Shown one piece after another: positions 15,416-40,050 of a stretch of 40,658 nucleotides of DNA; position 1 is the first letter of the stretch, and each line of letters opens with the position of its first letter. Position numbers and translations under genes: made by a program. The DNA lies in contig JAFTYG010000005.1 in NCBI GenBank assembly GCA_017461365.1, forward strand, positions 1 through 40,658, in the 5' to 3' direction. Origin of the DNA: Clostridia bacterium. Its GTDB lineage: Bacteria; Bacillota; Clostridia; Oscillospirales; CAG-272. Under the pieces are notes generated by a model. That model did not search any database, had not been told where the DNA came from, and saw only the letters and a list, made by a program, of their open reading frames with translations.

Positions 15416-17365
15416 ATGGTTGAATACACGCTAAACAAAAAGGCGGGCATAGGTCCGTGTATGGATGTGCGTGGCTGGAATCGCCGCATTTTCGCCATTC
15501 AACGGCAAAACGGCGGACGGCTTTGCCTTCTTACTCCCGACCTCCGACCGATATATACATATGAGGGCATCGGAAATGTCCGTCAGATAGAAATAAAGAA
15601 CGGTATTGCCGCTATTTCCGCCCGTGAGGACGGGCTATGGCTCTTTGACGTCAGCGGCGATGAGCCACTGCTCTTATCCCATTACCGAACCGTTGAGTTT
15701 GCCACGGGAGTGACCATATACAAAAATCTCGTTTTTATAAGCTGCCGCCAATACGGTGTTGAGATCATCGATATAAAAGAGCCGAAAGAGCCTCGGTATG
15801 TGGGTGTCATACGTGTGGGTGAGGTGCAATCGGCTTGCGTTTATGAGAATATCCTGTATTGCGGGGTATGGGGAAAAATGAAGGTAGTCGCCATAGATAT
15901 ATCGGACATACACGCGCCGAGGACGGTGGCGGAATATCCCCTGTCGGGAAGAGGCGACGGCGTTGTCGTCCGCGACGGTATGCTTTATGCCGCAACGGGG
16001 CAGCACCGCAGAGGCATAAAAAATGTCACTGATGTGAACGATCCCGATTTCGGGATGGGAAACGGAGTTGAGGTATTCGACGTTACCGCTCCCGACTCTC
16101 CGAGGCATATTCTTTGGGAGTTTTTCGGCAAGGGACATTCCCTCGCCTTTGATATGTGGAAGCCTATGCTTTGCGGCGAGCTCCTACTGTGCAACTGCTC
16201 GGTCATGGGCGTATATGGCTACGATTCAAGGACTATGGAGGGGCGCTTTCACATTCTTCCGCCTGACACACGCGACAAAAAAGATCCCGTTACGGGAACG
16301 ACGGTCTTTGAAGGAAGGCTATATGTCACCACGGGGCAGGGCGACCTGTACTGCTTTGATGAGCTCGAATTTAACGACGCCTATCGCTACGATGCAAAGG
16401 GTACCGTAGAGACGGCTGAACCGAATTTTGAATGCACAGACGGCGGCGGTGTCTCTCTCACTCAGGCGTATGCAAGTGAACATCCCGTTTTGTCGGTCTG
16501 CGAGATAGAGGAAGGAAAGACGTTGGCGCTTGCTATGGGCTACGGCGGTATAGGGCTCATTGATCCTCGGAATATGCAAAATACGGCAACACTCAAAACA
16601 CGAGGCTTTTGCTATGACGTAAAATCCCAAGGAGCTCTTCTTTGCGGAGCATTTGGTGAGTGCGGTGTCGCTATATACAGCCTTGACGGAACTGCCTTTA
16701 CAGAGCTATCAAGCATTACCCTTGGGGCATCTGTACAGCAGATAGCTATTTCGGAGAACGGTAGATTTCTTGTAGCTGTCTGCGGCAGCTCCGTGCTGAA
16801 GCTGTTGGATATTTGCGATCCCGCGCGCCCCAAGGTCATATCGACACTTAGCGGAGTACGAGGCCCCTTTTACGGTGAAAACCTTCTTACGCACCCCTAC
16901 GGCGGCAAGGGAATTTCCCTGTTTTGTCACCGCGAGGGCTTAATATACACCGATCCCGAGGGCGGTGACAGAGAATTTCACACACTCTCATGGAGAACCA
17001 AAAAGGGCTTTATGGGCTATTGTCCCGAAAACGGCTGTGACGTTGTCGATGGGCATATCCTCTACGCACGCAAGGGCGGATATGTCATCCTCCCCGCCGA
17101 CGGCGATAGATATGCAGATGAGCTGCCAATTCATTCGGCAAAGGAACAGGTGAGCGGAAAATACTGCGTTGTGGGTAAGAGTCTGATAGCCACCGAGCGT
17201 GCCGAGGGTATCGTTTCGGTGTTAGATGTTTCTGACATTGAGCACCCCGCGCATATTGCCACGTTACGTACAAACGCATCACCCTCAAAGGCAGTAAGCA
17301 CCGATAATGGTATTTATATTGCGGGCAGATATGGGGGATTGCTAAAATGTGATGCGGGAAGGTAA
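15416..17365 (+). CDS. LVIVD-repeat beta-propeller protein
   Basis: A 649-residue protein built of repeated about 40-residue beta units of the LVIVD type. Recurring pieces are GVEIIDIKEPKEPRYVGVI, MKVVAIDISDIHAPRTVAEY, GVEVFDVTAPDSPRHIL, VLKLLDICDPARPKVISTL and VSVLDVSDIEHPAHIATL. Together they would form one or two beta-propellers. There is no signal peptide or membrane segment, so it appears cytoplasmic, unlike many secreted LVIVD proteins. No catalytic motif is known for the family; protein or ligand binding is likely. There is no clear SD; it starts 13 bases after the PHP gene, so translation may depend on coupling. Repeat A4 follows. Confidence 0.85.
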   Translation: MVEYTLNKKAGIGPCMDVRGWNRRIFAIQRQNGGRLCLLTPDLRPIYTYEGIGNVRQIEIKNGIAAISAREDGLWLFDVSGDEPLLLSHYRTVEFATGVTIYKNLVFISCRQYGVEIIDIKEPKEPRYVGVIRVGEVQSACVYENILYCGVWGKMKVVAIDISDIHAPRTVAEYPLSGRGDGVVVRDGMLYAATGQHRRGIKNVTDVNDPDFGMGNGVEVFDVTAPDSPRHILWEFFGKGHSLAFDMWKPMLCGELLLCNCSVMGVYGYDSRTMEGRFHILPPDTRDKKDPVTGTTVFEGRLYVTTGQGDLYCFDELEFNDAYRYDAKGTVETAEPNFECTDGGGVSLTQAYASEHPVLSVCEIEEGKTLALAMGYGGIGLIDPRNMQNTATLKTRGFCYDVKSQGALLCGAFGECGVAIYSLDGTAFTELSSITLGASVQQIAISENGRFLVAVCGSSVLKLLDICDPARPKVISTLSGVRGPFYGENLLTHPYGGKGISLFCHREGLIYTDPEGGDREFHTLSWRTKKGFMGYCPENGCDVVDGHILYARKGGYVILPADGDRYADELPIHSAKEQVSGKYCVVGKSLIATERAEGIVSVLDVSDIEHPAHIATLRTNASPSKAVSTDNGIYIAGRYGGLLKCDAGR

Positions 17366-19814: not shown

Positions 19815-19843
19815 TTGACAAAAGTAACCCCGTGTGGTATAAT
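19815..19843 (+). promoter_or_regulatory. Perfect consensus promoter for the small toxin-like mRNA
   Basis: TTGACA (19815-19820), a 17-base spacer and TATAAT (19838-19843). Transcription would start near 19850, just before the small hairpin GGCGAAAGCC. Confidence 0.85.
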
Positions 19844-19849
19844 AACTCT

Positions 19850-19990
19850 TGGCGAAAGCCCGTAGAGGGGTGCTCGGTCTCGATCGAACGCTGAGCCTAC
19901 GTTACAGGCTCCACTGATGCGGCGGTTGCTTCCCGTTTTTCGGGAAAGCAGATTTTCTTTTTGCCTTCCCGATGAGGGGAGGTGATGCTA
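19850..19990 (+). ncRNA. Structured 5' leader of the toxin-like mRNA
   Basis: About 140 bases of predicted structure from the consensus promoter to the 27-codon gene. Visible elements: a GGC-GAAA-GCC hairpin at the 5' end; a stem GCTCGG/CTGAGC; competing pairings CGTAG/CTACG and GAGCCT/AGGCTC; a stem TGCTTCCCG/CGGGAAAGCA (19927-19950) followed by GATTTTCTTTTT, which resembles an attenuator; then CCTTCCC (19964-19970) pairing with GGGGAGG (19976-19982), which buries the SD of the small gene. No known riboswitch was recognised. Confidence 0.65.
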
Positions 19991-20074
19991 ATGTATTTAA
20001 CTCTTGAGGATATACTCCTGATTGCAGGAGTTGTTATTGCGTTGTTAACTTACATTGATCATAAAAAGAAATAA
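19991..20074 (+). CDS. 27-residue membrane peptide, putative type I toxin
   Basis: A 27-codon gene: MYLTLEDILL, then a hydrophobic segment IAGVVIALLTY, ending IDHKKK. A single membrane span with a charged Lys-rich tail is the layout of small 'holin-like' type I toxins of Firmicutes. The SD AGGGGAGG (19975-19982) is eight bases before the ATG; an in-frame ATG at 19985 is too close to it. Features fitting a type I system are a perfect promoter, a long folded leader burying the SD, a terminator directly after the stop and a convergent antisense promoter of equal strength. Toxicity is inferred from design, not from a recognised homologue. Confidence 0.7.
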   Translation: MYLTLEDILLIAGVVIALLTYIDHKKK

Positions 20075-20147
20075 CCGCCTCACTTCCACATAAGGCGGTT
20101 ATTTTTTACAGCTGATTGGGGAAGCGACCGAACATCGGTGCCTCTCT
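20062..20147 (-). ncRNA. Putative antisense antitoxin RNA
   Basis: A predicted minus-strand RNA from the promoter at 20182-20154 to the shared terminator, about 85 bases. It would overlap the 3' end of the toxin mRNA by about 40-45 bases, through the terminator hairpin and its loop. Near its 5' part CGCTTCCCC (20126-20118) can pair with GGGGAGGTG around the toxin SD (19976-19984), nine pairs with two G-U. It has an ACCGA/TCGGT hairpin at the 5' end. It encodes no protein of note. Confidence 0.65.
20069..20107. terminator. Bidirectional terminator shared by toxin mRNA and antisense RNA
   Basis: An 11-bp stem, AAATAACCGCC (20069-20079) with GGCGGTTATTT (20094-20104), and a 14-base loop. T runs follow on both strands (TTTTTT on plus; TTTCTTTTT on minus). 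Loop bases TCACTTCC (20080-20087) can pair with GGAGGTGA of the toxin ribosome site (19978-19985), eight pairs with one G-U. Confidence 0.85.
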
Positions 20148-20153
20148 GCTATT

Positions 20154-20182
20154 ATTATAAACCTCTTTTCTCCATTTGTCAA
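20154..20182 (-). promoter_or_regulatory. Perfect consensus promoter for the antisense RNA
   Basis: On the minus strand TTGACA (20182-20177), a 17-base spacer and TATAAT (20159-20154). It mirrors the toxin promoter on the plus strand. Confidence 0.82.
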
Positions 20183-22461: not shown

Positions 22462-22632
22462 ATGAGCAAATCAACTATCCGAAAAGCTATGGCAAATGCC
22501 GAAGCATCTATTAAAATGGAAGGATTGGTCGTATCTGATAAAAGCAAGGAGCTGTGCCGAAAAATTATGGATAACGAGATCACCTTTGAAGAGTATTTGA
22601 AAGCGATAATCACAGGTGAGGCGTGTAAATGA
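22462..22632 (+). CDS. VbhA-like antitoxin of a Fic toxin
   Basis: A 56-residue helical protein directly before the Fic gene, sharing an ATGA overlap with it. It carries the Fic-inhibition motif [S/T]xxxE[G/N] as SIKMEG (16-21), in which the Glu blocks ATP binding by the partner Fic enzyme. It then has the VbhA-type tail GLVVSDKSKELCRKIM and EEYLKAII. SD CGGAGG lies before the ATG. Small size makes it easy to overlook. It forms a class I Fic toxin-antitoxin pair with the next gene. Confidence 0.88.
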   Translation: MSKSTIRKAMANAEASIKMEGLVVSDKSKELCRKIMDNEITFEEYLKAIITGEACK

Positions 22633-23225
22633 AGTATAGCTTGGATCCGTCATCTGCAAATTGTTATGAAGGTACGACCTGCCTTATCAATAAATTAAAT
22701 ATTCGTGATGAAAAAAGGCTTTCGGCGATAGAGGCGCAGATTACCTTTGCAAAGGCGGTAATGCTTGAAGAAAATCCGATTGAAGGAAATTTTGATTTTG
22801 AGCATTTCAAAAAAATTCATAGATTTTTATTTTCTGATCTGTACAGTTGGGCGGGAGAGATAAGAACGGTAAATATATCAAAAAAACGAACAAGGTTTAC
22901 AGATTACAGAGATATTGAAGTTGTAGGGACAGCCTGCTTTCAAAAAATTGCGGACGGATATATGGAAGGTCTGTCTTTTGATGAATTTGTGTACCGTATT
23001 GCAGAGCTGTATAATGATATAAATCACTGTCATCCATTCAGAGAAGGAAACGGACGTGTCGAACGTATTTATTTTACCCAACTTATTCGGCACTGCGGAT
23101 ATGATATAAATCTTTCCGACGTGGATACGGATGAGCTTATGATGGCAACGATCCACGCATCTATGGGAGTTATGGATTTTTTGATTGAATTTTTTAGAAA
23201 TGCTATAACAAAACCGATTGAATAA
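22629..23225 (+). CDS. fic: Fic-domain AMP-transferase toxin
   Basis: A 198-residue Fic protein of VbhT/cell-filamentation type. The active-site motif HPFREGNGRVER (135-146) has the catalytic His, the acidic metal ligand and both Arg residues, so it should be active. The usual upstream hairpin that positions the target strand includes VNISKKRTRFTDY (81-93). Fic toxins of this class AMPylate gyrase subunits or other proteins when the antitoxin is lost. No conjugation or secretion domain is attached, so it acts inside the cell. A perfect inverted-repeat terminator overlaps the stop codon. Confidence 0.94.
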   Translation: MKYSLDPSSANCYEGTTCLINKLNIRDEKRLSAIEAQITFAKAVMLEENPIEGNFDFEHFKKIHRFLFSDLYSWAGEIRTVNISKKRTRFTDYRDIEVVGTACFQKIADGYMEGLSFDEFVYRIAELYNDINHCHPFREGNGRVERIYFTQLIRHCGYDINLSDVDTDELMMATIHASMGVMDFLIEFFRNAITKPIE

Positions 23226-39397: not shown

Positions 39398-39421
39398 AAT
39401 AGCGGAAAGGTGGTGCATATT

Positions 39422-39718
39422 ATGGCAACGAAGACCGCAAACGTAACCGCGCGTGTTCATCCCGAAATCAAACAGCAGGCAGAAGAGGTGTTGGAGCAGC
39501 TCGGTATTCCCGTATCGGTACTGATCGATTCTCTTTACCGTCAGATCATTATGACCAACAGTATTCCGTATTCGTTCAGTATTCCGTCTTTACAGACTCG
39601 CGATACTATGACCGATGCACAGTTTAATTCAATGATGTCGAAAGGACTCACGCAAGCAAAAGCAGGACAAGGCTTGGATATTGACGATGCTTTTGCCGAG
39701 ATAAATAAAAGTATCTGA
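39422..39718 (+). CDS. RelB/DinJ family antitoxin
   Basis: A 98-residue antitoxin. The N-terminal ribbon-helix-helix DNA-binding part matches RelB/DinJ: MATKTANVTARVHPEIKQQA, then ILEQLGIP-like EEVLEQLGIPVSVLIDSLYR. The C-terminal part (about 60-98) would wrap the toxin. ATG at 39422 has AAAGGTGG upstream; a GTG at 39410 in the same frame is inside that site and is not used. It ends two bases before the toxin ATG. Confidence 0.9.
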   Translation: MATKTANVTARVHPEIKQQAEEVLEQLGIPVSVLIDSLYRQIIMTNSIPYSFSIPSLQTRDTMTDAQFNSMMSKGLTQAKAGQGLDIDDAFAEINKSI

Positions 39719-39720
39719 CA

Positions 39721-40050
39721 ATGACGTATAAAGTAAAGCTGACAAGTAACGCGCTCGATCATTTGAAGGATGCTATCGGATATATCTCTAAGGCGTTGCT
39801 CGAACCCGAGATATCGCGGCGGTGGTCCGATCGGATCAGAAAGGATATTTCGTCCCTAAGTCATATGCCGTTTCGTTATCCGCTTGTCGAAGAAGAGCCT
39901 TGGCATACAGAAAATATCCGCAAAATGAATGTGGAGAATTTTATCGTTTACTATTGGGTAGACGACACCGATCTTACTGTTTGGGTTATCGCCGTCGTTT
40001 ACGGAAGACGTGATCAAATATCCGTTCTGAGAAATCTGTCAAAAGAATAG
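39721..40050 (+). CDS. RelE/ParE family toxin
   Basis: A 109-residue toxin of the RelE/ParE superfamily. Starts YKVKLTSNALDHLKDAIGYI, the typical strand-helix-helix, then MPFRYPLV and a C-terminal sheet NFIVYYWVDD, VWVIAVVYGRRD. The conserved Arg and Tyr residues in the C-terminal strand (VYGRRDQ) are compatible with mRNA cleavage (RelE) or gyrase inhibition (ParE); sequence alone does not decide, though pairing with a RelB/DinJ antitoxin favours RelE/YafQ. Terminator follows five bases after the stop. Confidence 0.9.
   Translation: MTYKVKLTSNALDHLKDAIGYISKALLEPEISRRWSDRIRKDISSLSHMPFRYPLVEEEPWHTENIRKMNVENFIVYYWVDDTDLTVWVIAVVYGRRDQISVLRNLSKE

Follow-up and report, generated by a model that had tools for sequence, protein, structure and literature searches.

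A candidate chromosomal type I toxin-antitoxin unit with a Hol_Tox-like peptide and par/Fst-like RNA control in gut Clostridia

The locus and its peptide gene

The locus described here lies in a 40,658-nt stretch of DNA (the window, meaning the whole stretch analysed) from the genome of a Clostridia bacterium, G000, where it is flanked by genes for an APH-family phosphotransferase and an MFS transporter. Its features are listed in Table 1. An initial annotation had described two perfect facing promoters, a folded leader of about 140 bases, a 27-codon gene for one hydrophobic span with a KKK tail, and a terminator with T runs on both strands. All of these parts were recovered: both promoters score 12/12 with a spacer of 17, the ORF was found, positions 19850-20112 fold at -96.6 kcal/mol (z -5.0), better than all 200 shuffles, and the T runs are borne out by direct reading, the terminator scan giving the minus-strand reading only.

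Table 1. Features of the locus, in coordinates of the window
Feature	Position	Strand	Remarks
Toxin mRNA promoter	19815..19843	+	TTGACA-17-TATAAT, 12/12; TG precedes the -10
Toxin mRNA (inferred ends)	19850..20108	+	from promoter and terminator; leader ~141 nt
Leader anti-SD element 1 (aSD1)	19924..19934	+	GGTTGCTTCCC; SD partner in MFE fold; inverted repeat I3 with antisense 5' element
Anti-anti-SD element (anti-aSD)	19941..19950	+	CGGGAAAGCA; partner aSD1 (two-hairpin fold) or aSD2 (nested fold)
Anti-SD element 2 (aSD2)	19962..19971	+	TGCCTTCCCG; local hairpin with SD
Shine-Dalgarno (SD) region	19976..19984	+	GGGGAGGTG; paired in both predicted folds at 71/72 family leaders
Hydrophobic peptide gene, putative Hol_Tox-like toxin	19991..20074	+	ORF, 27 codons; 27-aa peptide MYLTLEDILLIAGVVIALLTYIDHKKK
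Antisense RNA, putative antitoxin (inferred ends)	20060..20147	-	from promoter and terminator; ~88 nt
Bidirectional terminator hairpin	20066..20107	both	inverted repeat I1, spans stop codon; minus-strand terminator call; direct reading
Antisense 5' element	20118..20128	-	GUCGCUUCCCC; complementary to GGGGAGGUGAU at 19976-19986, 8 Watson-Crick + 3 G-U pairs
Antisense promoter	20154..20182	-	TTGACA-17-TATAAT, 12/12, read 20182-20154

The gene encodes a short hydrophobic peptide with a charged C-terminus, as is looked for in a type I toxin. Its sole Pfam match is Hol_Tox (PF16935), at 15.1 bits and so short of the gathering cut-off of 23.3, which is passed by two of ten scanned relatives (29.5 and 35.2 bits), both of the same architecture; an NCBIfam scan gave no match. 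Hol_Tox matches 21 of 42 family peptides at E<=0.1, and a Hol_Tox peptide from another family (ending VALLTYIDKK) aligns with the profile of the window's paralogues at 94.6% probability. By these profile comparisons the window peptide is a divergent relative of Hol_Tox, so that the earlier statement that it could not be named is overtaken as regards its kinship and stands in that the window peptide itself stays under the cut-off. Hol_Tox is present in 23 of 199 genomes of the phylum and, of 14 control genomes, in those of B. subtilis and Lactococcus lactis only; the genes it matches in B. subtilis are presumably TxpA and BsrG. Hol_Tox genes of other Bacillota share the peptide kinship, but the downstream facing promoter scores only 8-11 of 12 at the 27 Hol_Tox loci analysed (of 30, three being incomplete), G000's own copy on contig C45 among them.

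Within the family the peptides vary widely: over 42 aligned peptides the majority pattern starts MYxTxE, and the sole column reaching at least 90% is a Lys near the end. The frame is nonetheless kept: with the start and the last four codons omitted, 134 related pairs, which are not independent, give dN/dS ~0.12 and pN/pS 0.21, and pN is lower than pS in 134/134; purifying selection on the frame across family copies is shown by these ratios.

Facing promoters, shared terminator and the distribution of copies

The initial annotation held two perfect facing promoters to be very unlikely by chance, which is too strong for one pair. A single facing pair is not improbable because G000 carries 84 + 108 (192 in total) perfect TTGACA-16/18-TATAAT sites, versus 1 + 3 (four) for a reversed control, and the number of facing pairs expected within this distance, with sites assumed evenly spread, is 84 x 108 x 339 / 2,375,177, or ~1.3 per genome. 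The promoter pair alone is weak evidence, and the case is carried by conservation.

At 23 loci recovered by DNA similarity, the antisense promoter scores 12/12 in 20, a count that is not wholly blind because the blastn query contained that promoter; its -10 sits 76-82 nt past the stop codon in 20 of the 23, and the toxin promoter scores at least 11/12 in 18, against a mean of 7.3-8.9 in control windows elsewhere, where a 12 occurs somewhere in two loci. These loci comprise 21 of 28 blastn places in family genomes and the C16 and C45 copies from blastn of G000 (omitted were L052, L054, L057 and L063, where no ORF was seen, L061 and L067, on the contig of L050, and L064, the same locus as L042); L046 and L062 have identical downstream promoter sequence and are not independent. 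In a larger set of 86 family loci (43 + 73, minus L048, whose start is missing, C29, which has in-frame stops, 15 loci without recognisable SD and 13 duplicates), the toxin promoter scores at least 11/12 at 70: at 14/18 DNA-similarity loci, and at 19/19 and 37/49 loci from two pattern searches, source of 68 of the 86, neither of which asked for this promoter. In the 49-locus pattern set the search itself requires an antisense promoter of 12/12, and in the 19-locus set it presets the -35; of the 18 DNA-similarity loci, 16 have an antisense promoter of 12/12.

The terminator shared by the two genes is likewise kept among copies, and in it the Lys codons, read in reverse, form the antisense U-tract: in the window the codons AAA AAG AAA TAA become TTATTTCTTTTT on the minus strand. 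Toxin Lys codons thus double as antitoxin terminator, which would couple the two genes within a few bases. From the inferred ends, toxin mRNA and antisense RNA would overlap by ~49 nt, last codons included, and the antisense RNA, read 20147-20060, folds better than 199 of 200 shuffles (z -4.6). What is predicted at sequence level is therefore an overlapping antisense RNA gene with its own promoter and terminator.

Blastn of the region against G000 found paralogues on contigs C14, C29, C41, C16 and C45 and antisense-side fragments on C72 and C68; a peptide profile search found these five paralogues and a weak match on C61 (E 0.198), which the architecture pattern matches too. In all, G000 has five copies with intact frame, one with two in-frame stops, one with a doubtful start and two antisense-only remnants. 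The in-frame stops lie near the start of the C29 paralogue (L065/L033 1601-1687), whose promoters both still score 12/12; the C45 copy has a toxin promoter of 9/12 and an antisense promoter of 11/12, and the C61 copy has a start without a normal SD. On C68 and C72 (L038; L037 1509-1725), contigs identical across the aligned stretch, an antisense promoter of 11/12 and the terminator are kept, the toxin gene is absent by reading, and an insertion of ~100 nt with CGGTC at either end lies inside the antisense RNA. The own-genome copies keep the unit, those on C29, C45 and C61 being partly decayed or doubtful.

Two side observations concern these copies. Beside that on C45 (L036 1114-1296) lie near-repeated ORFs with starts 37 bp apart, suggesting a short tandem array. 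The C61 copy (L168), with L062, L171, L180 and L202, forms a branch with VTYEAL/VTFE-type peptides and a start without SD, in which an SD and ATG ~30-35 nt upstream, in another frame, read over the toxin gene; this upstream start may be a decoy, or reflect coupling or frameshift.

The neighbours of the C14, C29, C41 and C16 copies include genes for a VTC domain, a response regulator, an AraC regulator, GDPD, SAICAR synthetase, a Cthe_2159 domain and an ABC-3 transporter; in the Pfam scan one C41 neighbour and the one neighbour scanned for C45 had no match, and none of the neighbours scanned for these five copies is phage-like. One antisense pattern had no match in viral contigs, and the 29-aa peptide of one relative had no tblastn match in phages and plasmids, negatives that are weak because the queries were short. 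Elsewhere in the window, all on the plus strand, Pfam identifies a type II toxin-antitoxin pair (RelB-like and ParE-like, 39410-40050) and a Fic/DOC family protein (22629-23225), and a 649-aa ORF (15416-17365) has no Pfam match at E<=0.001.

With G000 counted, blastn finds homologues in 17 of 146 genomes from the taxonomic family, in 12 of 71 genera. An antisense pattern run against a species-genome collection gave 27 matches in 24 stretches, all from metagenome-assembled genomes titled Clostridia, Ruminococcus or Oscillospiraceae, the source, where the title gives one, being animal gut (goat, sheep, deer, cattle, and "Lapin", rabbit); a toxin-like ORF is present at 23 of the 27 (the exceptions are L084, L093, L098 and one of two in L092). 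When the terminator arm and the antisense promoter were combined into one pattern, it matched in 93 of 395 family genomes and, at the level of the order, in 44 of 197 (among them G000, G003 and G022 of the window's family), with up to eight matches per genome, and the reversed-control pattern had zero among the matches listed for family and order genomes. Inspected by eye, these places include many that are no members (they have no antisense motif and resemble chance or other sequence) and others that clearly are. An ORF passing the hydrophobicity filter lies just upstream in 73 of the 80 family places fetched, which is not an unbiased rate because an ACCG-like antisense motif was the criterion by which the places were picked by eye; the other seven have no toxin-like ORF, 11 of the 73 have no recognisable SD, a few of the 73 ORFs are doubtful (e.g. 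L167), and at least three similar places (G346, G028, G177) lie outside the 80. Variants occur, as judged from the 20 places fetched (17 used), in other families of the order. A stricter pattern matched only G000 over 147 order genomes and is uninformative on range because it missed G003, which was in the sample and is matched by the broader pattern.

Leader folding and the antisense element

The leader of the toxin mRNA is predicted to have two mutually exclusive folds, each hiding the SD. In the MFE fold of the window, aSD1 pairs with the SD and anti-aSD with aSD2 nested inside, at probability near 1; in the alternative, aSD1 pairs with anti-aSD and aSD2 with the SD. Among the 72 of 86 family leaders covered by the comparison, the MFE fold has the long pairing in 48 and the local pairing in 24. 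In the two-hairpin fold at least 60% of the SD is paired in 72/72 leaders; its pairing probability exceeds 0.8 in 66, and in 71/72 it is at least 80% paired in both folds, versus 57% of 720 shuffles. A leader stem sequestering the SD, as looked for in a par/Fst-like system, is thus predicted.

Covariation was assessed in an alignment of 48 class-I leaders (A4), filtered for length and identity; a first alignment of 64 leaders had yielded one consensus helix only. For hairpin B, the local one of aSD2 with the SD, 24 cells are changed on both sides (shuffle mean 12.6, 0/500 as high), of which 16 (16/48 sequences) fall at one pair with CG/UA compensation; pairs with double changes are no more numerous than in shuffles (482/500 reach their number). 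RNAalifold chooses the nested fold for the leader alignment, in which 18 sequences carry compensatory changes at the same SD base and further ones lie inside; covariation is present there at the anti-aSD element as well. A register shifted by one is 98% paired and has no covariation.

The 5' part of the antisense RNA consists of an ACCG..CGGT arm pair followed by GGTTGCTTCC or a variant. The 5' element is also present in the toxin leader (inverted repeat I3), where it repeats the leader's anti-SD element, and by direct reading the GUCGCUUCCCC-GGGGAGGUGAU pairing spans 11 nt of the SD region. The DNA copies at 19976-19986 and 20118-20128 differ by three transitions with G-U pairing kept, and are direct repeats giving antisense-SD complementarity, as in par/Fst. 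The element changes with the SD: loci with SD GGAGGGCGATG have antisense element GGTTAGCCCTC or GGTCGCCCT, and those with SD AAAGGAGGTGA have GGTCACCTCCTT.

When cognate antisense-SD pairing is compared with permuted partners (kinship being handled by a distinct-pair filter only), 0/20,000 permutations are as good for 103 loci, and likewise for 86 loci and for 61 distinct pairs; before narrowing to the core element the figure was 3/20,000. For 17 of the 20 loci of other families it is 118/20,000, L259 (no ORF) and L260 (implausible ORF) being out and L257 left out by choice, its peptide having no basic tail and its antisense-SD pairing looking weak. Duplex energies of single loci against composition-matched shuffles are weak: the window stands at 7/200, barely beating shuffles because its SD is G-rich, and only 14 of 43 loci are at or below 10/200 (omitting L084, L093 and L098, with ORFs that are not toxin-like, and three duplicates). 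Judged by the permutations, the antisense-SD complementarity across loci is not chance.

Interpretation and relation to known systems

We consider it quite probable that the locus is a chromosomal type I toxin-antitoxin unit, with a Hol_Tox-like putative toxin and RNA control like that of par/Fst. The type I reading offered by the initial annotation is supported by the conserved frame, the opposing promoter, the shared terminator and the SD-complementary antisense element, and it is based on sequence anatomy, conservation, purifying selection and covariation. That annotation had named loss of the frame or of the opposing promoter in relatives as what would speak against it; neither was found, because both are conserved, the frame at the dN/dS given above and the promoter at 20 of 23 DNA-similarity loci. 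Counting against the reading are the window peptide's score under the Hol_Tox cut-off, the weak duplex energies at single loci, the shifted register without covariation, the pair count of hairpin B, the fetched places with no toxin-like ORF or no recognisable SD, and the SD hidden in both predicted folds, which leaves toxin production unaccounted for.

In the mechanism we propose, the plus strand would give the mRNA for a membrane peptide of 27 aa with one span and a Lys tail; when made, this peptide would probably disturb the membrane of its own cell. The leader would act as a four-part ladder (aSD1, anti-aSD, aSD2, SD) forming either two local hairpins, plausibly during transcription, or one long nested stem, the SD being hidden either way. 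The minus strand would supply, presumably constitutively, an RNA of ~88 nt, whose terminator is complementary to the mRNA 3' end and last codons and whose 5' element, a copy of aSD1, can pair with the SD. A likely order of events would be contact of the terminator loops, growth of the duplex, blockade of the SD and possibly cleavage by RNase III. A drop in antisense RNA or processing of the mRNA might then allow the peptide to be made.

The RNA control, as predicted, resembles par/Fst of pAD1 more than TxpA/RatA. PMC7472228 describes par with convergent promoters, a shared bidirectional terminator, a leader stem hiding the SD, and an antisense RNA that blocks the toxin SD and start via DNA direct repeats; the general plan, an mRNA silenced by its leader and by an antisense RNA that pairs first at the terminator and then at the SD, is given for par there and in PMC4147584. 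Convergent promoters and a shared bidirectional terminator are found here too; the differences are that the toxin is Hol_Tox-like, not Fst (its only Pfam match is Hol_Tox, and it has no proline and so no PXXXG, the Fst motif in the legend of PMC7472228), and that the leader is a two-state ladder. The likeness to TxpA/RatA or BsrG/SR4 seen by the initial annotation survives for the convergent 3' overlap, with TxpA/RatA also for the small hydrophobic peptide and Hol_Tox; it fails for the antisense element. RatA, as PMC4147584 presents it, has no complementarity to the translation initiation region and acts mainly by mRNA decay, and TxpA has 59 aa versus 27 aa here; the antisense element here is complementary to the SD and covaries with it. 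SR4 overlaps BsrG by ~120 nt and, acting at a distance, makes the RBS stem longer (PMC4147584), unlike the present antisense RNA, which itself carries an anti-SD. The leader recalls the metastable SD hairpins of AapA3/IsoA3, for which PMC6733600 proposes successive SD-hiding structures during and after transcription and a third anti-SD that traps the full-length mRNA; the difference is that all elements here lie in the 5' leader, one being repeated in the antisense RNA. C. difficile CD2517.1-RCd8 and its kin are likewise clostridial convergent type I pairs; their complementary overlap is long, and their toxins, of 50-53 aa, are unlike other known type I toxins (PMC6563280).

These comparisons bear on the alternatives. 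The pair might be of type I and work as RatA does, by a duplex at the 3' ends followed by RNase III decay, the SD-like repeat being incidental or serving the leader only. The ~49-nt overlap, the Hol_Tox kind of toxin and the decay mechanism described for TxpA/RatA (PMC4147584) agree with this; we think it unlikely, as the antisense 5' element lies outside the overlap, recurs in family groups and covaries with its own SD. Slightly less likely again is an antisense-repressed peptide that is no self-toxin and is regulatory, signalling or outward-acting (holin-like or antibacterial). Such a role would fit a peptide whose toxicity is putative, a neighbourhood in which 14 of 17 scanned genes have a Pfam match and are not phage-like, with a type II toxin-antitoxin pair and a Fic gene near in the window, and the PF16935 "holtox" genes of streptococcal prophages, given as of unknown function in PMC11357604, which cites a holin-like homologue thought antibacterial and able to complement a lysis-defective phage. 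Against it stand the many copies with fast-diverging peptides that keep little except hydrophobicity and a basic tail, and the in-frame-stop copy and antisense-only remnants of the same genome, which look like toxin decay. That the promoters face each other by chance over a meaningless ORF has next to no credit, even with ~1.3 perfect pairs expected per genome: chance is excluded because the facing pair recurs at homologous copies, the architecture being conserved at many loci and the frame under purifying selection.

Beyond the type I reading, we put forward tentatively, as a possibility we would not yet favour over its opposite, that the locus belongs to an undescribed order-wide lineage in which the antitoxin RNA bears an inverted copy of the leader's SD-masking switch and so mimics the mRNA's own lock; lock and key would diverge together at each locus, and parallel copies would form partly insulated sets. 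According to a 2019 review (PMC6563280), most clostridial species yielded no homologs of known type I toxins when searched in silico on a large scale, the exceptions being TxpA-like and Fst-like sequences in two species. We found no account of the present family among the matches listed in the open-access type I, Hol_Tox and clostridial literature, main texts being the scope and the absence not proven, nor in passages of PMC6563280, PMC8309996, PMC10903887, PMC11264685 and PMC11357604. Rfam likewise gave no match in the window at gathering thresholds; its 16 low-threshold matches, each under its family's cut-off, offered no credible RNA identity and were set aside. With this family, which is reachable by a short DNA pattern, such units would be densely represented among uncultured gut Clostridia, and Hol_Tox-like peptides would be tied to par-like RNA control; the family's co-varying antisense/SD pairs would form a natural series for direct tests of specificity between parallel antitoxins.

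As a separate observation, the unit recurs on single contigs of four genomes (G026 C47, G109 C57, G362 C34 and G733 C18), over distances from a few hundred bases up to a few kilobases, and some of these repeated copies have identical peptides.
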